Part shown: positions 6,449 to 37,543 of the stretch, in pieces
How positions within the stretch are numbered: position 1 is the stretch's first letter
Layout: every line of letters begins with the position of its first letter
NCBI RefSeq assembly: GCF_000316575.1
Contig: NC_019682.1
Location: forward strand, 496,001-560,000
DNA: 64,000 nucleotides
Source: Calothrix sp. PCC 7507
GTDB lineage: Bacteria > Cyanobacteriota > Cyanobacteriia > Cyanobacteriales > Nostocaceae
Direction: 5' to 3'
Notes under the pieces: generated by a model
Told to the model about the DNA's origin: nothing
What the model saw: only the letters and a program-made list of their open reading frames with translations
The model's database searches: none
Program-made: the position numbers and the translations under genes

Positions 6449-7033
6449 CTACAACTTAACTACCAGCGGTAACATCTCAAATACCCCAATCTGCAAATCA
6501 GGAAACTCTAAAGGTGAAATAGTGCTATCTTCTGATAAAGTCTCTTCACTTTGATAGCCATCTTCAGCTGGTTGGCGGAAAACATGCAATTGACGACCAA
6601 CTACATCCAACACCCAATAATCAATAATTCCTGCTTTTGAGTAGGCTTTAGCTTTGGTTTCACAATCTAGTTTCAGACTGCTATCGGCTACCTCAATAAT
6701 AAAATAAACCTCAGAAGGCGTAGGATGATGGTCTGCATAGTCCAAAGGGTCTATTTTCACAACAGCAACATCTGGCTCTAGCTCTGACCGTTCATTTAAC
6801 TTAACTGGGTCTTGAATGGATATGCAAGCCCGATCACCTAAACGGTTTTCTAATAACTTATATGTTCTCCCCACTGCAGATCGATGGGCTGTTCCTTTAG
6901 CAATCATCCAAATTATCTTTCCTTCTAGCAGTTCCACCCGTTCCTCTGCACCAAAAATTCCCGCCTCCGCCATCCGGTGGTAGTCCTCAACTGTCCACAG
7001 GCGAAGTTGTAGCGTCGTTTCTGTGTTTTGCAT
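6449..7033 (-). CDS. Uma2 family endonuclease-like protein (DUF820)
   Basis: The 194-residue protein is of the Uma2/DUF820 type, a PD-(D/E)XK nuclease fold greatly expanded in cyanobacteria. Visible motifs are the N-terminal WTVEDYHRMAEAGIF, then VELLEGKIIWM, ELEPDVAVVK and FIIEVADSSL, where the Asp and Glu are the likely metal-binding residues, followed by KAYSKAGIIDYWVLDV. Biological roles are unsettled. I use ATG 7033; a TTG five codons upstream is possible. It converges on the GNAT gene with a 32-base gap. Confidence 0.85.
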   Translation of the reverse strand: MQNTETTLQLRLWTVEDYHRMAEAGIFGAEERVELLEGKIIWMIAKGTAHRSAVGRTYKLLENRLGDRACISIQDPVKLNERSELEPDVAVVKIDPLDYADHHPTPSEVYFIIEVADSSLKLDCETKAKAYSKAGIIDYWVLDVVGRQLHVFRQPAEDGYQSEETLSEDSTISPLEFPDLQIGVFEMLPLVVKL

Positions 7034-7137
7034 AACTTGTGGGAGCAAATGTGAGGGTCGTGAGCATTAGTATCCTAGCATTCGTGGCTGATGATACTTG
7101 CCGTATGGGGAATGGGGAGAAATGACAAATGACAATT

Positions 7138-7341
7138 GATAAGCTGATGCACGCCTAAACCAAATACACTCACGAAGAAGGTTTGTCAAGGGTCAACCCT
7201 ACCCTGCGGGTACTGCTTCGCAGTACGACTAAGCTCAGGCAGGGCAAGAAGTCAAGAGTCCAAGCTAGGATTTGACCTTGGACTCTTGACCTTTGACAAA
7301 CTCAGCGCGAAATATACAATTTAAGTGCGTAACAGCTTATC
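7138..7341. repeat. MITE-like element, family 5, with internal 14-bp hairpin
   Basis: The left end GATAAGCTGATGCACGCC and the right end, read on the other strand as GATAAGCTGTTACGCAC then TTAAATTGTATATTTCGCG, are imperfect inverted repeats. A perfect 14-base inverted repeat (GTCAAGAGTCCAAG, 7251-7264 and 7277-7290) lies inside. A related copy lies in the opposite orientation at 60652-60794. It fills most of the 7034-7374 gap, which has no gene. Confidence 0.6.
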
Positions 7342-7374
7342 AGCCATACCTGATGTCAAAAGGACAGACTAGCC

Positions 7375-8049
7375 GTGATTTATGGCAAAAATGCACTCAA
7401 AGGCTTACTTAACCTTTTTCTCCAATCCCATTGTCCGCTGTGTCAACGCTCCACAGATCGTGAACTTTGCTTATACTGTGAGCGACAATTGCAAACGTGT
7501 CACCTTCAAGACCCTAATTCACGGTGGCAAGAAGCGATACCAGTATTTAGTTGGGGGGTATATGGTGGTACCTTAAAAAGAGCGATCGCCGCGATGAAAT
7601 ACGAAAACCAACCCCAAATCGCTCATCTTTTGGGTCAATGGTTAGGGGAAGCATGGTTATTAAATTCACCAAAATCTGATACACATTTGGTAGTTGTTCC
7701 CATCCCACTCCACGCCAGCAAGCTCAAGCAACGTGGCTATAACCAAGCGGCGTTGATAGCACAAAGCTTTTGCCAAACAACTGGTTTAAAATTAAAACTC
7801 GATGGCTTGGAACGAGTCCGAGAAACTAAAGCACAGTTTGGTTTATCGTTATCCGAGCGAGAAAAAAACTTAACTGCAGCTTTTGCTGTGGGAAAAGGAT
7901 TAAGCCGTTATTCAAATCCCCTAGTGCTATTAGTGGACGATATTTATACCACTGGTGCTACTGCTGCTTCCGCAGTGCAAACACTTGGTCAGTGTGGAAT
8001 TGGGTTCTTGGGGCTAGCAGCAGTCGCTACCACTGTAAAAGACACATAA
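7375..8049 (+). CDS. ComF family protein (phosphoribosyltransferase fold)
   Basis: The 224-residue protein starts at GTG 7375. A zinc-ribbon with CPLC and CLYC pairs (C20, C23, C32, C35) precedes a type I phosphoribosyltransferase domain. The PRPP loop is VLLVDDIYTTGAT near residues 184-196, and the family motif KQRGYNQAALIAQ is present. ComF proteins are needed for natural DNA uptake in Gram-positive bacteria; in cyanobacteria comF is also linked to competence, and to phototaxis in Synechocystis. No in-frame ATG is close enough to keep the zinc ribbon, which supports the GTG start. Confidence 0.85.
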   Translation: MIYGKNALKGLLNLFLQSHCPLCQRSTDRELCLYCERQLQTCHLQDPNSRWQEAIPVFSWGVYGGTLKRAIAAMKYENQPQIAHLLGQWLGEAWLLNSPKSDTHLVVVPIPLHASKLKQRGYNQAALIAQSFCQTTGLKLKLDGLERVRETKAQFGLSLSEREKNLTAAFAVGKGLSRYSNPLVLLVDDIYTTGATAASAVQTLGQCGIGFLGLAAVATTVKDT

Positions 8050-31536: not shown

Positions 31537-32259
31537 TTACCCAGCTTTCTTGTAAGCATCGTTAGTAAATAAGGGTACACACTCACTAACGTTATAAACC
31601 GCTGCAATTTCCACATCAGGCTCAAACCCTTTTGCAATCAACTCTTTACCGGAACTACATTTTTTCAAGTAGCCTAATAAATCCTCTTGGAAAGCCTGAA
31701 ATGTAGCCACAGCAGTTGCTGCTTCGGGTGATAAACTGCCAGGTAAATAACTGAGAATTGCCCCAGCGCCAATCAAATCCTCAAATGCAGGTCGAAGGCT
31801 ACCATCATCTTTCCATCTCTCACCAGCAGGAATTACAGCAACTTTGTTACCGTACCTTTGAGCAAACTTTGCCACCGCTTGGCAATTTCGCAAACAGCCA
31901 GCCAGAGTTGGTGTTTTCCCTGTCTGTAAAGTTAAAAAAGAACCATTGGGTGAAGGTAAAACTAGTTTAGTTCCAGCGGGAATTTGCGCTATTGATTTTG
32001 GAGAGAGAGAATATTGAGTCGTTGTAGACCATCTATGGCTGGCTAATTCTGCCTGTAGTGATTTTGCATAATCTACAACTGATTCATCTCTCATTGCATA
32101 GGGAAAAATAATCGCACCGTTGTTAGTAGCAATTTCTACACAGGTAGAAAAAGATAGAACATCAACTATGACAATGACATCACTAATAGCAGCGAGTTGA
32201 GTAACTCCTTGTGGTCCCCACTCACAGCGTAAGTCAAACTCTGATTGATCGTAAATCAT
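31537..32259 (-). CDS. 2-phosphosulfolactate phosphatase family protein (ComB)
   Basis: The 240-residue protein is of the ComB family, Mg-dependent phosphatases first described in methanogen coenzyme M synthesis and widespread in cyanobacteria with an unknown role. Conserved stretches are VIVIVDVLSFSTCVEIATNNGA, LVLPSPNGSFLTL, AGCLRNCQAVAKFA, VAVIPAGERW and RPAFEDLIGAGAIL. I start at ATG 32259 (MIYDQSEFDLRCEWG); 12 hydrophobic residues upstream are probably not translated. The cyanobacterial substrate is not known. Confidence 0.83.
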   Translation of the reverse strand: MIYDQSEFDLRCEWGPQGVTQLAAISDVIVIVDVLSFSTCVEIATNNGAIIFPYAMRDESVVDYAKSLQAELASHRWSTTTQYSLSPKSIAQIPAGTKLVLPSPNGSFLTLQTGKTPTLAGCLRNCQAVAKFAQRYGNKVAVIPAGERWKDDGSLRPAFEDLIGAGAILSYLPGSLSPEAATAVATFQAFQEDLLGYLKKCSSGKELIAKGFEPDVEIAAVYNVSECVPLFTNDAYKKAG

Positions 32260-32454
32260 AAGAGCGATCGCCAACAACAGTATGATAAAAATCAAACCAC
32301 AAATTAACCAAGTCAGTGTAAATAATTAAAGATTTGTAGTCAGAACTTTAGTGCTACTTTCACGACTAAAACCCAAAACTCTTTGAAAGCTATTATCGTG
32401 ATCACAATTAGTAGAAAATTCTTGTTTGAAAATAGTTTATAAGAACAGTAGATA

Positions 32455-33219
32455 TTACAGTCTACGAATCAAACAAAAGCAAAGCCAAACAAAATAAAAC
32501 CAAGCAAACCAACCCAGCATAATAGACCAACCACCAACCAAAAAAGAAAATAATCCAATCCCAATAATAACCAACTTTGCGATATTTTCTATAATATCTT
32601 CTATGATTTTATCTGTGGTAGTTAATTCAGAAAGAGCAGATTGTTGTTTTGGGCTAGCAATTTCTATAATTTTATCTACAGCAAAAGCCTTAGGTTGTGA
32701 TATTGATTCAAGAACAGCAGCTTTTTTTGGTCTAGCAAAGCCAGGAAATATATCAACACCAAGTTTTATAGAGCGATCGCACCAATAACACTTACCATAA
32801 GTTCGGCTGTAGTAGTGGCTGTTTACCTTTCCACAGATAGTCAACTTATTGACAGCAAGTCTGAGCGCTTTTACCCAATCCCCAGCAGTTGGACGCAAGT
32901 TAGGATTTTTATAACCATCGTTAAAGCATTTGAGAAAACATCGCTGAACCTCTGGGTGAACGATCTCAAGAGGAATTGTTATTTCTACAAGTCGAAATGG
33001 ACTACTTGGTGTATACAGCCATAAACCCTGACGGATAAGTTCATTGTTTTCTGGAATTTCCCCCGCACCTATCCACTTTCCTGTAAAAGGAGTTTGACCA
33101 CCAAACAACAACTGATAGATAATCACTGCTAACCGGAAGTGATCATGTACTTCCGTTTGATCAGTGCTATCAAAATCTTTGCCAATCAGTTCTGGTGGTG
33201 TAAAGCCTTCTGAACCAAC
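32455..33219 (-). pseudogene. C-terminal part of a TerY-P-type protein kinase cut by an IS
   Basis: This frame continues a kinase domain with GSEGFTPPELIGKDFDSTDQ, then DHFRLAVIIYQLLFGG and a final lobe that ends in RPTAGDWVKALRL. Next is a short Cys/His segment (NSHYYSRTYGKCYWCDRSIK, residues YG-C-x2-C), typical of kinases in TerY-P triads, and two C-terminal membrane helices. It has no start of its own; the N-terminal part is at 34543-35081. Removing the IS and one TA joins the two halves in frame as RCLVGSEGF. The kinase is thus probably inactive in this clone. Confidence 0.85.
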
Positions 33220-33221
33220 TA

Positions 33222-34540
33222 GTACAAGACGGCGGAAGTAAGCCGAGTATTATATGGGATAATTAAGTCAGTAGATGAAAAGCTTTGTTTGGTGACAAAG
33301 AATCAGGGTATGGCAAGATTAGCTCCAAAAGAATTAAGTTTGAGTGATAGTGAGCAGAATGAACTACAAGAGTTGATAAAGGGACATAAGACAGCACAGC
33401 AAATCGTCATCCGAGCCAAAATTATTCTTCTGGCATCATCAGGGAAAAATAACGGCGAAATTGCTCGAATATTAGAGATTAGTCTAGATATGACTCGTTT
33501 ATGGCGAAAGCGATGGTTGGAGACAGAGGGAGCAAAATTATCAGCTTTTCAAAGATTACAAGATCAAGAGCGTACTGGCGCACCAGTAAAATTTAGCATG
33601 GAACAAGTAATAGAGTTGTTTGCGCTTGCCTGTTCGCCGCCAGAAGATTACGGTCGGACAATAAGTCACTGGACATCTAGAGAACTGACAGATGAAATTA
33701 CAAAACAAGGGATTATCGAAAGTATATCTGTTCGCCATGTGGGAAGACTATTAGAAGAAGCTCAATTGAAGCCACACCAAAGTCGGTACTGGCTGACTCC
33801 CCCCCCTGGATGAAAAATTTGATGCAAAAGTTGAAGATATTACAGATTTGTATTTAAATGCGATTGACCGTCATCTAAAGGGGGAACGCACAATATCTAT
33901 TGATGAGATGACAGGTATTCAAGCTACTGAGCGCATAGAAAAAGACTTACCAATGCGACCGGGCAAAGTTGAAAGAAGGGAATTTGAATATATTCGTCAC
34001 GGTACGCAAACCTTGATAGCCAGTTTCGATGTTGCCACTGGTCAAATTATCAGACCAACTTGTGGAGATTCCAGAACAGAAGTTGATTTTATCTTTCATA
34101 TTCATCAAACTATTGCCACTGACCCCAATGCGAAAAAATGGCATTTAATTATGGATTGCCTGAACACTCATCAATCGGAGTCCTTAGTTCGTTTTGTTGC
34201 ACAAATTGAAGGTTTAAACATCAACCTTGGCATTAAGGGTAAAAGTGGCATCCTCAAATCAATGAAATCTCGTGCAGCTTTTTTAAGTGACCCCACACAT
34301 CAAATCGTTTTCCATTACACACCACTACATTCTTCTTGGCTCAACCAAATTGAAATTTGGTTTAGTATTTTGGTACGGAAGTTACTAAGAAGAGCCAGTT
34401 TCCAGAGTCAGGATGATCTCAAAACTAGAATTCTTGCTTTTATTGACTACTTTAATCAAACAATGGCTAAACCTTTCAAGTGGACATATAAGGGTAAAGT
34501 TTTGGCTGTTTAATACTCGGTTTATTTCCGCCGTCCTGTA
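33222..34540 (+). mobile_element. IS630-family insertion sequence (1319 bp)
   Basis: The ends are inverted repeats of about 31 bases: GTACAAGACGGCGGAAGTAA on the left and, on the other strand, GTACAGGACGGCGGAAATAA on the right, with three mismatches over the full length. Both sides are flanked by TA (33220-33221 and 34541-34542), the target duplication made by IS630/Tc1-mariner elements. The element carries one transposase gene in two frames and lies inside a protein kinase gene. Confidence 0.93.
33310..34513 (+). pseudogene. IS630-family transposase in two frames (frameshift at C8)
   Basis: The first frame (33310-33813) encodes the helix-turn-helix part (AQQIVIRAKIILLASSGKNN, EIARILEISLDMTRLWRKRW). 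The second frame, open to 34513, encodes the DDE catalytic core: D in ISIDEMTGIQ, D in LIMDCLNTHQS, and E in SSWLNQIEIWFSIL. The frames meet at eight C residues (33799-33806); seven would give TPPLDEKFD in one frame. So a one-base loss or slippage is needed for full transposase. This may be a homopolymer mutation or a regulated shift. Confidence 0.85.
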
Positions 34541-34542
34541 CT

Positions 34543-35081
34543 AGACAACGATAAACCTTATTGTTTTTCGGATTCCGAACCTGAAAAGAATCAGTATCAA
34601 TTATTGAAGGTAAAGCGCGATCGTTTACAAGAATATTTTGCGGCTTGATGTCACCCAAAACATAGCCAGAAGCGTGAATTGCTTCAATAATTGAGGCGAT
34701 ATTCATTGCCGTTGTGTGGAGAAAACGCCAATCAACCTCAAGTTTCAAAGCTTTACGACGCTTGGTATTGTATATATCAATAAGTTCTTTCGCTTCCTTA
34801 ATTTCCGGCATCAAAAAGCCTACACAATTACCTTGAGCATCTTTTAGTACCGACTTAGGCCAAGCAAAAGAAATATGATTGAGGTGAGAGTTTGGCTCTT
34901 TGGGTCGGTGAGCTATCATCACCGCCAACTTTTGCACACGATCAGGAGTTTGCGAATGGTAAATTTTCGCTAAGTAACCATTGCGATTTGTTTGCCAAAC
35001 CTTTGCTTCACCACTATTAGCTATGGGTTCACCCAGCAGAGTAATCGATTGACCCGTACTGGCACAGGTGAGAACTCTCAT
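34543..35081 (-). pseudogene. N-terminal part of a TerY-P-type protein kinase cut by an IS
   Basis: The frame starts at ATG 35081, overlapping the PP2C stop (ATGA). It has a Gly-poor loop (GEPIANSGEAKVWQTNRNG), the Lys strand YLAKIYH, and the catalytic loop GYVLGDIKPQNILVN, where Gly-Asp replaces HRD's Arg-Asp. The metal loop is IIDTDSFQV instead of DFG. These variants are characteristic of the kinases in TerY-P triads. Translation runs into the IS after RCL. The rest lies at 32455-33219. Confidence 0.85.
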
Positions 35082-35875
35082 CGAATTTTACTCTCATCAA
35101 ATAAGCACAAAAGTAAGGTTTTATCATCGTCGGTGCGAGAATTTAGCCGTTCTGAGTTGAGGAATTCCGTCAGATATTTATCTTCTTCCTCCTCACTAAC
35201 AGGTTCCTGCAAGTATTCCTCCAAAGGTTTAAAGAAAGGCGAGAAGGGTTCCCAGTCGCTCAAACGAATTGCTACTTTTTCTAGTCCATCAGTGGAAGCA
35301 CAAATAAACTCTTGTTTTTCAGAAATAACCTCTACCTGCATTTCTTTGACTGCATTTGTTGAGGTAATAAAAGTTGTTTCATTGACAAATTCACCTTTAT
35401 CTGGCTGAAATAACAGCTTATATTCTGACTCTTGGGAACGCATTACAATAAATCCATCCCCAATTTGCATAGCTGCAACCCATTCAGGAGTCGCAATGAA
35501 AACCAACAATGTACAAGCTAAATCATTGACAGAATAATCTTCTTTGGCTGCTTGCCTAACTAACTCAACAATTACCTTGTTTACAGTTTTAGTAAATAAT
35601 TTATCGGCTTCTGTTTGTGAAAGTATTTGAGAAAAATTTTGCCAACAATGTTGACGCTTGCGAAGATATCCACTAATTCTTGAGAGATATTTAAGTGCCG
35701 TTTCTACAGCCAACTTAGAACCAACATCAGAATGTTTAGCACTACCAGCACCATCAGCAACCGCACCTACAATCACATCCTTAAAGATGCGATAACCCCC
35801 ATAATCTTGACAAACTATCCCCTGATTTTGATGACTTGTTCCAATCGCGGAACGCGCAACAGCTTTCCAATTCAC
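35078..35875 (-). CDS. PP2C-type protein phosphatase (TerY-P triad)
   Basis: The 265-residue protein is a PP2C-family phosphatase. It opens with WKAVARSAIGTSHQNQGIVCQD, then VIVGAVADGAGSAKHSDVGS (metal-binding Asp in VADGAG), VNDLACTLLVFIATPEW, QIGDGFIV and a late FICASTDGLEKVA. The final acidic Asp is in NSRTDDDKTLLL. PP2C dephosphorylates Ser/Thr and here should counter the adjacent kinase. It sits 10 bases after the VWA gene and overlaps the kinase gene by four bases, so the three were one operon. Confidence 0.87.
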   Translation of the reverse strand: MNWKAVARSAIGTSHQNQGIVCQDYGGYRIFKDVIVGAVADGAGSAKHSDVGSKLAVETALKYLSRISGYLRKRQHCWQNFSQILSQTEADKLFTKTVNKVIVELVRQAAKEDYSVNDLACTLLVFIATPEWVAAMQIGDGFIVMRSQESEYKLLFQPDKGEFVNETTFITSTNAVKEMQVEVISEKQEFICASTDGLEKVAIRLSDWEPFSPFFKPLEEYLQEPVSEEEEDKYLTEFLNSERLNSRTDDDKTLLLCLFDESKIR

Positions 35876-35885
35876 AAAATTTCCT

Positions 35886-36545
35886 CTAACTCGTAATTTG
35901 ACCCCATCCCATAGCTGGTAAAGCTACAGCTTGCCCTACTTTGCCACTAGAAACCCGTTTCATCGAAGTAGAAAGCCAGACAAACAAATCACGAAAATCT
36001 AAGCCATTTAGCGTAACTGGTGGACGTTCAGGTGGGGAAATTTGTTTGAGGATATTCATATCAGCACCCTTGACACCAACTGCAAAAAATGAGAGTCGGC
36101 TTTGTGCTTCTGCTTGTCTCAATCTTTGCGCGGCTGAATTCCAGGAGTCTGATGGCGCTCCGTCTGTAATCAAAAACACCCAGGGACGATAATAGAGAAT
36201 ACCGTTGTCTTTATAAGTCTGTTTCCGGTTTTCTAGAAAATCCAAAGCATACTCAATCGCTGCACCCATTGGGGTAACACCATCTACTTCCAATATAGGC
36301 GGTGTAAATTGGTCAATCGTCACAAAGTCTTGCGTGAGTTTAACTATAGGTCCAAATGTGATCATGGACACTTCCACACTCAGCGATGCTTGGGAATCTC
36401 TCAGCACATCTTCCTTAAAAGCCGCCAACCCTAGATTTAATTCTTGGATAGGTTGACCAGACATAGAGCCAGAAGTATCAAGTAAAAGAATTACAGGGCA
36501 ACGATTTTCTGGATTTTCGACGAATTCAGGCAATCCTACAGGCAT
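35886..36545 (-). CDS. VWA domain protein, TerY-like
   Basis: The 219-residue protein is almost all one von Willebrand A domain with an intact MIDAS: D23-x-S25-x-S27 in LLLDTSGSMSG, Thr in VDGVTPMGAAI and Asp in FLITDGAPSD. It ends with FRDLFVWLSTSMKRVS, a motif I associate with TerY-type proteins. TerY, a PP2C phosphatase and a kinase make the TerY-P triad described in tellurite-resistance and stress systems. It is the first gene of the operon. Two perfect palindromes lie 50-83 bases upstream. Confidence 0.87.
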   Translation of the reverse strand: MPVGLPEFVENPENRCPVILLLDTSGSMSGQPIQELNLGLAAFKEDVLRDSQASLSVEVSMITFGPIVKLTQDFVTIDQFTPPILEVDGVTPMGAAIEYALDFLENRKQTYKDNGILYYRPWVFLITDGAPSDSWNSAAQRLRQAEAQSRLSFFAVGVKGADMNILKQISPPERPPVTLNGLDFRDLFVWLSTSMKRVSSGKVGQAVALPAMGWGQITS

Positions 36546-36628: not shown

Positions 36629-36745
36629 TTTACTGAAACAACTTCCCTACTTGAAATATATGGGCTGATAGCGATCACAATTATTTGTCTACCTAAAGTG
36701 TTCATCATTCGATAAACTCAGAATTGCTGCAATATTGTTCCAGAA

Positions 36746-36820
36746 ATGTCAGACTCCCAAATCTTTAGTGCATTTGTTGCCAAACTCTACGATACCTATC
36801 TACTTCCCTATGCCATCTAA
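36746..36820 (+). pseudogene. Duplicated 5' fragment of the methyltransferase gene
   Basis: The frame reads MSDSQIFSAFVAKLYDTYLL and then PYAI and a stop. It closely resembles the first 20 residues of the methyltransferase at 37626 (MSDSQTVSAAVAKLYDTYPF). About 45 bases of upstream sequence are also similar (36702-36745 compared with 37580-37625). The remainder of the gene is missing; xisH begins inside this fragment. It marks a second, lost copy of the methyltransferase gene or its start. Confidence 0.7.
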
Positions 36821-37226
36821 AGATATATTCCATCAATCTGTCCGCACTGCTTTAGAAAAAGATGGTTGGATGATTACCCATGACCCACTGCATCTGAAAG
36901 TTGATGACATTGAATTTTTTGTAGATTTAGGAGCAGAAAGACTATTAGCAGCACAAAAACAAGGATATAAAATAGCTGTGGAAGTTAAATCCTTTATAGG
37001 TGCTTCGGGCGTAACGGAATTTCATCTCGCTTTAGGTCAAATCCTGAATTATCGGCTAGCATTAAGAAAAGAAGAACCAGAACGCATTCTATATCTAGCT
37101 ATTAGCCAAGATACATACCAAGACTTTTTCTCTCGTCAATTTATTCAAGATTCTTTAAAAGAATATCAAATTAAGCTTTTAATTTTTCATTCCTTAAGTC
37201 AGGAAATTGTTTTATGGAAAGAATAA
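36810..37226 (+). CDS. xisH: XisH family protein
   Basis: The 138-residue protein begins MPSKDIFHQSVRTALEKDGW and has the XisH core with DLGAERLLAAQKQGYKIAVEVKSFIG, an E-x-K arrangement like the PD-(D/E)XK nuclease fold. XisH and XisI are known as accessory factors needed for excision of the fdxN element in Anabaena heterocysts; they are also found in many genomes without that element. I chose ATG 36810, which lies in the truncated methyltransferase copy. The start upstream (36735) gives sequence unlike the family. xisI overlaps its end by 13 bases. Confidence 0.87.
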   Translation: MPSKDIFHQSVRTALEKDGWMITHDPLHLKVDDIEFFVDLGAERLLAAQKQGYKIAVEVKSFIGASGVTEFHLALGQILNYRLALRKEEPERILYLAISQDTYQDFFSRQFIQDSLKEYQIKLLIFHSLSQEIVLWKE

Positions 37227-37543
37227 GTTACTCTCAAATCATTCAAGATATTTTACGGAACCATTCCGCTAATGACGTGGCTAATGGCACAGATGTTCAA
37301 TTACTATTTGACGCAGAACGCCATCATTATCAAGTCTTAAATATTGGCTGGAAAGAACAACGGAGAATTTATGGAGTCATCATTCATGTCGATATCCAAG
37401 ACAACAAAATTTGGATACAAAGAGATGGTACAGAAATCGGCATTGCTAACGAATTAATTGCTGCTGGAGTACCTAAAGAAGATATTGTATTAGGATTTCA
37501 TGCTCCTTATAAACGCCAATTTACTGACTTTGCTGTTGGATAA
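37214..37543 (+). CDS. xisI: XisI family protein
   Basis: The 109-residue protein matches XisI along its length: MERISYSQIIQDILRNHS, the central FDAERHHYQVLNIGWKEQRR, IHVDIQDNKIWIQRDGTE and the ending ELIAAGVPKEDIVLGFHAPYKR. It overlaps xisH by 13 bases, as is usual for this pair, indicating coupled translation. Its exact biochemical role is unknown; it is thought to act with XisH. The cassette is flanked by two copies of the methyltransferase start. Confidence 0.92.
   Translation: MERISYSQIIQDILRNHSANDVANGTDVQLLFDAERHHYQVLNIGWKEQRRIYGVIIHVDIQDNKIWIQRDGTEIGIANELIAAGVPKEDIVLGFHAPYKRQFTDFAVG

Follow-up and report, generated by a model that had tools for sequence, protein, structure and literature searches.

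What has happened to a kinase gene that carries an insertion sequence in its middle, and is the interruption an ordinary loss, a useful truncation or a reversible switch? This question is raised by a three-gene locus of the cyanobacterium Calothrix sp. PCC 7507. The locus lies in a stretch of 64,000 nucleotides (RefSeq assembly GCF_000316575.1, contig NC_019682.1, positions 496,001 to 560,000 of the forward strand; hereafter the window, whose numbering is used for plain coordinates) and encodes a VWA protein, a PP2C-type phosphatase and a putative Ser/Thr kinase, together called the triad (Table 1). Very probably, an IS630-family element that recently entered a CTAG within the codons of the activation segment has inactivated a YegI-type membrane-linked Ser/Thr kinase, the product of the last gene in a VWA-PP2C-kinase operon.

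The kinase gene is interrupted between codons 180 and 181, with the DTD motif on the 5' side and most of the C-lobe on the 3' side, and the open reading frames (ORFs), their frames and their order are as the initial annotation had described them. When the element was removed in silico, one stop-free frame of 436 codons was obtained across the insertion site. The initial annotation had removed 33222-34540 plus one TA; its restored frame and joined peptide were right, but the right end had been placed one base short of 34541. Its expectation that the joined frame is free of further inactivating changes is borne out as to stops and frameshifts, of which neither half contains any, but has to be qualified for a few unusual substitutions in the 3' half (see below). 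The VWA and PP2C genes are intact, with the MIDAS-type (metal-ion-dependent adhesion site) residues DxSxS, T and D in the former (DTSGS, VTPMG, ITDG) and the motifs ADGA, TDG and DDK in the latter. The 5' kinase fragment scored 19.8 bits with the Pkinase model, under the cut-off of 31.7, and the 3' fragment alone gave no Pfam match, whereas the uncut orthologue L010 matched Pkinase at 5.1e-10. The Pfam matches and the Cys/His segment agree with the triad, including a C-terminal Cys segment on the kinase, that had been read from the sequence at first, and the two hydrophobic stretches found in a hydropathy scan agree with the two membrane helices.

The assignment of the element to the IS630 family was upheld by the transposase matches, the TA duplication and the inverted ends, which agree at 29 of their first 34 positions. 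ORF B of the transposase scored 102.2 bits with the NCBIfam model transpos_IS630 (cut-off, 100), and ORF A 71.1 bits, below the cut-off. The genome of Calothrix sp. PCC 7507 holds eight copies of the element, all of them (8/8) at CTAG, a tetramer that occurs 201 times in the window (TA, 4272 times) and seven times in the triad minus the element, the target included. The DDE_3 transposase, the TA duplication and the inverted ends are shared with IS630 and with ISY100 (Tc1/mariner superfamily), and the CTAG preference is like that of IS630, reportedly the subject, by its title, of a work by Tenzen and Ohtsubo in 1991.

Empty sites in relatives, on whose presence the initial annotation had staked its interpretation beforehand, were found at every locus compared. 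With the two kinase halves as separate queries, the halves were contiguous to the base, with zero extra nucleotides, in 16 of the 16 orthologous loci (L039-L043, L045, L047-L054, L061, L068); L044, L046 and L055, in which the kinase is broken or partial, and loci that were not checked at base level were left out of this count. The tetramer at the site is exactly CTAG in four of the 16 (L039, L040, L043, L061), and TTAG (six), CCAG (three), TCAG, GAAG or CCCG (one each) in the others.

The event also appears to be recent, as had been proposed, since six of the eight copies, the kinase copy included, are identical across 1320 bp (another shows a single substitution). The mean silent divergence of Calothrix sp. 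PCC 7507 from its relatives is 0.22-0.33 across four segments (VWA, PP2C and the two kinase halves). Because the copies are identical, the insertion is far more recent than the split from the nearest relatives, unless gene conversion has homogenised the copies.

Several points weigh against this interpretation. The comparison covered one genome per species, this species included, and the insertion need not be fixed in the culture, cyanobacteria often being polyploid. Private changes, defined as codons that differ where all other Nostoc-like rows share one codon, number 13 silent and 2 replacing in VWA, 6 and 1 in PP2C, 3 and 1 in the kinase 5' half (82 comparable columns), and 4 and 6 in the kinase 3' half. 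The 3' half thus differs from the other three segments taken together (22 silent, 4 replacing; Fisher p 0.014, in a comparison chosen after looking), whereas the two kinase halves compared alone give p 0.56, and nine other rows sum to 13 silent and 9 replacing changes in the 3' half. Three residues that do not vary among 14 Nostoc/Anabaena-type orthologues, Arg207, Asp313 and Thr331 (uncut-kinase numbering), are changed in Calothrix sp. PCC 7507; in the wider family they are present in 32, 28 and 23 of 45 rows, respectively. Since the element is unchanged relative to five other copies, these substitutions are probably older than the insertion, and the kinase may have been under weaker constraint before it, a hint and no more. 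In addition, an AlphaFold2 model of the orthologue L041 (14 rows) was poor (predicted local distance difference test, pLDDT, 44.9; predicted template modelling score, pTM, 0.24) and lends no support, and zinc binding and all partner interactions considered here are inferred.

Relaxed selection after the insertion was considered for the same substitutions and rejected, because other rows change as much in a larger set and the identity of the copies probably dates the changes before it. In the 3' half, nine of 119 otherwise invariant positions are changed in Calothrix sp. PCC 7507 (next highest, 6/116; 10 rows); with 17 rows the value is 4/78, equalled by L045 (4/78) and exceeded by L051 (5/79).

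Table 1. Features of the interrupted triad and its surroundings (window coordinates)
Feature	Position	Strand	Remarks
VWA protein, 219 amino acids, TerY/YegL-like, triad gene 1	35886..36545	-	PF00092, 8.1e-11
PP2C-type phosphatase, 265 amino acids, triad gene 2, intact	35078..35875	-	PF13672 (PP2C_2), 2.4e-58
Kinase 5' part, codons 1-180: N-lobe, GD catalytic loop, DTD motif	34542..35081	-	Pkinase, 5.7e-4
Kinase 3' part: remaining activation segment, C-lobe, Cys-His-Cys-Cys segment, linker, membrane hairpin	32455..33221	-	
C-x5-H-x8-C-x2-C segment, presumed zinc site	32779..32835	-	four residues invariant in 45/45 kinase rows, including E. coli YegI
Two C-terminal hydrophobic stretches (membrane hairpin)	32470..32607	-	hydropathy scan
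IS630-family element, 1320 bp, within kinase gene	33222..34541	+	
Target duplication TA, left copy (left flank CTA)	33220..33221	.	
Target duplication TA, right copy (right flank TAG)	34542..34543	.	
Transposase ORF A, helix-turn-helix (HTH) part	33289..33813	+	
Transposase ORF B, DDE_3 part	33848..34513	+	different frame from ORF A
Stretch of eight C where transposase ORFs A and B meet	33799..33806	+	possible frameshift/slippage site
xisH and xisI, neighbour genes	36735..37543	+	adjoin the triad in several relatives too
2-phosphosulpholactate phosphatase-like neighbour gene	31537..32295	-	same side in several relatives

As to the nature of the system, plasmid searches grouped the triad with YegL-PphC-YegI of Escherichia coli and with VWA-PP2C-kinase sets found in a range of bacteria that includes rhizobia. 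E. coli K-12 encodes the same three proteins in the same order (yegL-pphC-yegI), with identities to the Nostocales proteins of 53% for VWA (to YegL, over residues 7-217), 33% for PP2C and 32-34% for the kinase core (query, L039). YegI likewise has a Gly-Asp catalytic loop, Cys-His-Cys-Cys at the same residues (309-327) and hydrophobic stretches after them; it differs in that yegJ lies between pphC and yegI, the kinase is uncut, and its tail gave zero Pfam matches at E 1e-7. In an alignment of 45 kinase cores, which include two pairs of identical proteins, Gly143-Asp144, Asp162, Asp164, Cys309, His315, Cys324 and Cys327 are invariant (45/45), and Asn149 is present in 43. The Gly-Asp of the catalytic loop, to which the initial annotation had drawn attention, is thus real but not peculiar to this kinase; since it is invariant, it is a family trait, and its interpretation as a loss of activity was rejected. 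Among solved structures searched at E 1e-3, the L010 kinase matched eukaryotic kinases only (47 sequences), and VWA and PP2C gave no match.

The triad had initially been named TerY-P. Published systems are described here from excerpts of the cited papers, according to which TerY-P comprises VWA, PP2C and a kinase with a C-terminal zinc ribbon (PMC11090510), and YegI, a kinase bound to the membrane, phosphorylates itself and has the phosphate removed by PphC (PMC13232886). Under the broad definition the name fits: a TerY-like VWA with MIDAS, an adjacent PP2C and a Ser/Thr kinase (split in the window) are all present, and the three-gene make-up and a presumed metal-type segment at the kinase C-terminus resemble the TerY-P triads reported from CoCoNuT and defence contexts. 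The difference is that no ter gene was found among the ten scanned proteins of and around the triad, nor a recognised restriction gene among the scanned neighbours. By sequence comparison, YegL-PphC-YegI is the closest studied relative that we found, with "TerY-P" fitting broadly. Two adjacent TerD-family genes (L078/L079, G000:C1:2870661-2871847) lie approximately 2.3 Mb from the triad. A search with TerY_C (PF15616) gave no match anywhere, the 14 control genomes included, and was hence uninformative. The matches listed from the plasmid collection (40 of 2363 records) include 38 rows of enterobacterial plasmid kinases, which we presume to be ter-linked; identity is 21.7-23.9% for 36 of these and 26.7-27.3% for the other two, which are partial. 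Of the 38 alignments, 34 break off at residues 309-313, short of the complete Cys-His segment; the same collection holds YegI-type E. coli kinases at approximately 32% identity. A TerY-P cluster disrupted in strains of one species has been described in Helicobacter pylori (PMC4978471). Like the locus in the window it is a gene-disrupted TerY-P triad; it differs in being linked to secretion and DNA-processing genes, and the excerpt names no IS630 insertion.

The kinase 3' half was matched in 76 of 100 relatives, in only 21 of them at more than 120 bits, and led to 17 named loci (Nostoc, 10; Anabaena, five; Cyanocohniella, one; a Nostocales record, one). Most of the weaker kinase matches belong to a second, widespread triad, approximately 40% identical. 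In a tree of kinase cores, 31 orthologues form one clade (support, 100) and nine second-triad rows another (support, 93). Calothrix sp. PCC 7507 itself carries the second triad (G000:C1, 1611-1614 kb; kinase 40%, PP2C 37% and VWA 52% identical), whose matches contain no stop; a somewhat longer VWA match has a single TAA at its margin, presumably the natural stop of the gene. The sole genome of the same genus among the 100 relatives (G001) has the second triad only. A complete triad with a WD40-tailed kinase was observed on plasmid A of Trichormus variabilis ATCC 29413 (L057), which is typed as conjugative, and three kinases of the family are encoded in another genome (G044), where two of the genes are accompanied by VWA and PP2C partners at divergent loci of the orthologue type (L069, L070).

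Erosion of the orthologous locus was found repeatedly. An out-of-frame deletion affects the kinase of L044, with no VWA match in the stretch, and VWA, PP2C and the kinase 5' part are all missing from the stretch at L046. The VWA gene stands without PP2C or kinase at L060, and is cut to its last 18 residues beside a whole PP2C and kinase at L061. At L062 all three genes are in pieces and the kinase frame is broken near the same place as in the window; at L063, PP2C and kinase with stops lie next to a whole VWA. Kinase remnants only are left at L064 (same contig as L055) and L065, and VWA and PP2C remnants at L066 and L067. These loci were picked for looking odd, so that they show erosion to recur and do not give its frequency.

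The kinase tail after Cys-His-Cys-Cys, which begins after residue approximately 340 in L010, L011, L039-L054 and others, is often replaced wholesale between close relatives. Among the orthologues it consists of WD40 (up to approximately ten repeats by a crude pattern), TPR, PDZ, PDZ with weak TPR, TonB_C, FGE-sulfatase, a PQQ propeller, or membrane helices only; L021, first labelled as other, has a TPR tail. The tail of Calothrix sp. PCC 7507 is a linker followed by a two-helix hairpin, as in L010, and the linker is similar by eye to that of WD40-bearing relatives. Pairs were drawn from 21 orthologues and are not independent; identical duplicates (L012, L013), rows cut by contig ends (L014, L016, L020, L023) and more distant rows (L022, L024-L026, L028-L030) were left out. 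When cores were at least 90% identical (19 pairs), less than half of a tail was covered by similarity in 12 pairs, and none of it in seven of those 12; at 85-90% core identity this was so in 17 of 25 pairs (none, 15). In five rows of the second triad with cores 77-100% identical, the tail was exchanged in 0 of 10 pairs. Four farther second-triad rows (L031-L034; cores 56-67% identical to the five and mutually) often have unrelated tails, so that the difference between the triads is one of rate. The core tree of the 31 orthologues requires a minimum of 15 changes of tail class, four of them among the nine Nostoc-type rows; the count is approximate, because 16 of 39 inner branches have support below 80 and the classes were partly assigned by hand. 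Lateral recruitment of WD40, TPR and other domains by cyanobacterial Ser/Thr kinases was described in 2007 (PMC2176072); judged from the excerpt, the present case differs in that the loci are orthologous, the cores almost the same and the boundary of the exchange fixed.

If the intact system works as in E. coli, kinase autophosphorylation would be reversed by the phosphatase, the VWA protein would be a metal-dependent partner or scaffold, and the kinase tail would decide what is sensed or bound. In Calothrix sp. PCC 7507, the 5' fragment stops short of the C-lobe helices and would be without kinase activity. The phosphatase and the VWA protein would now be orphans that may still be made; since the last gene is the one interrupted, the insertion does not necessarily silence the two genes upstream. 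The second triad may compensate for the loss or become a target of the orphan phosphatase. Most likely, the loss is neutral or weakly selected and buffered by the second triad, and the event looks like ordinary gene loss in progress, at a locus eroded in several other Nostocales. The locus thus offers a clean natural knock-out with known empty-site relatives, which is useful for asking what effect the loss of the kinase first has in a triad. Comparison across relatives shows in addition that the little-understood YegL-PphC-YegI of E. coli has a large cyanobacterial branch; since the kinase tail in this branch is exchanged between close relatives, the proposal that the tail decides the input becomes directly testable. 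Tentatively, and with considerable doubt, we suggest a broader picture, in which the Nostocales triad would be a modular switch under strong turnover: beyond a fixed boundary, the constant core of kinase and Cys-His-Cys-Cys would acquire one C-terminal reading head after another (WD40, TPR, PDZ, TonB-C, FGE-type or a bare membrane hairpin). The whole locus would be broken and lost time and again, which would suit a defence or conflict system and not housekeeping signalling, and in Calothrix sp. PCC 7507 the orphan PP2C and VWA proteins would act on the kinase of the second triad.

A related proposal, that the triad is an anti-phage TerY-P defence module shed because defence is costly, is in our judgment unlikely. 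TerY-P systems protect against some phages (PMC7699616, PMC10889362), and the patchy distribution, the repeated erosion and the one copy on a plasmid typed as conjugative would suit such a role. However, PADLOC at E 0.1 gave no hit for VWA, PP2C or the 3' kinase fragment (the presence of a TerY-P model in its library was left unchecked) and weak kinase-type hits only for the 5' fragment (best, 1.5e-5). No recognised effector nuclease was found among the scanned neighbours, the role of xisH/xisI being left aside, and the excerpts of the literature searched held no defence role for YegI or PphC.

Even less probable is that the split gene is still useful, its 201-residue 5' fragment (N-lobe and catalytic loop) acting as a dominant regulator or engaging the orphan PP2C as a decoy substrate. 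Its frame is free of stops and has few private changes (the three silent and one replacing among 82 columns given above), but little can be read into this conservation after so recent an insertion, and the C-lobe helices are missing. The similarly broken kinase of L062, moreover, sits where all three genes are in pieces, although conserved short forms were not sought systematically.

The reversible switch that the initial annotation had offered, in which precise exit of the element restores the kinase in part of the population, had to be given up as very improbable. The flanks do form one frame without the element, and the element looks recently active in this genome. In polyploid cells, recombination with an uncut copy might in principle repair the site. 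On the other hand, extra bases are present at the site in 0 of the 16 orthologous loci, the eight copies resemble ordinary insertions, and nothing else was found that indicates programmed reversal. ISY100, a cyanobacterial IS630-type element, is cut two nucleotides inside its 5' ends (PMC2170065, excerpt), so that joining of the ends would be expected to leave a scar, and exact excision is not predicted. An assembly artefact, with the element misplaced among its eight copies, is hardly credible: repeated elements can be misassembled, but the contig is a single one of 7.02 Mb, the target duplication is exact, and both flanks match the orthologous gene.

With regard to ordinary insertion of the element elsewhere, two of the eight copies split long frames, namely this kinase and a frame of 482 codons, the latter at the identical copy L003 (G000:C1:3099089-3103409); we take this frame, recognised by eye with no search, to be RecQ-like helicase sequence. 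A third is located three codons short of the end of a 294-codon frame; at the remaining five sites the longest stop-free frames are of 34-137 codons. At L006 and L007, the element copy abuts sequence resembling the end of a related element, that is, a nested or tandem insertion. One further copy (L008, G000:C1:1449864-1454185) has nine C, not eight, at the transposase A/B junction. The element was matched at E 1e-3 in 28 of the 100 relatives (four candidates scored per genome), the best complete matches being 78-80% identical. Seven related stretches, two from one genome, were compared: six have two long ORFs in different frames (the second is shorter in L073) and the seventh has the first ORF only; the C run was matched by the search pattern used in two of the seven. 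Since six of the seven show two frames, the split transposase is usual for this element group; it differs from ISY100, for which a single transposase gene is reported in the excerpt. Within the IS630 family, decoding by frameshift has been described (PMC5009743, excerpt), and it is possible that a functional transposase is produced by frameshifting or slippage at the C run.

Several relatives have the triad at the same chromosomal position, flanked by xisH/xisI and the phosphosulpholactate-phosphatase-like gene. xisH/xisI stand beside the triad in the window and at L039, L041, L043, L046, L060 and L068, and they persist as fragments at the eroded loci L061 and L065. On pColt5.8b of Rhizobium rhizogenes (L058), a related triad lies directly downstream of the His-Xaa-Ser system genes hxsB, hxsC and hxsA. 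A kinase 29.7% identical over 97% of the core is encoded at 6859-7875 of MT836238.1, an unannotated 11.7-kb record from faecal samples that is labelled as a bacteriophage.

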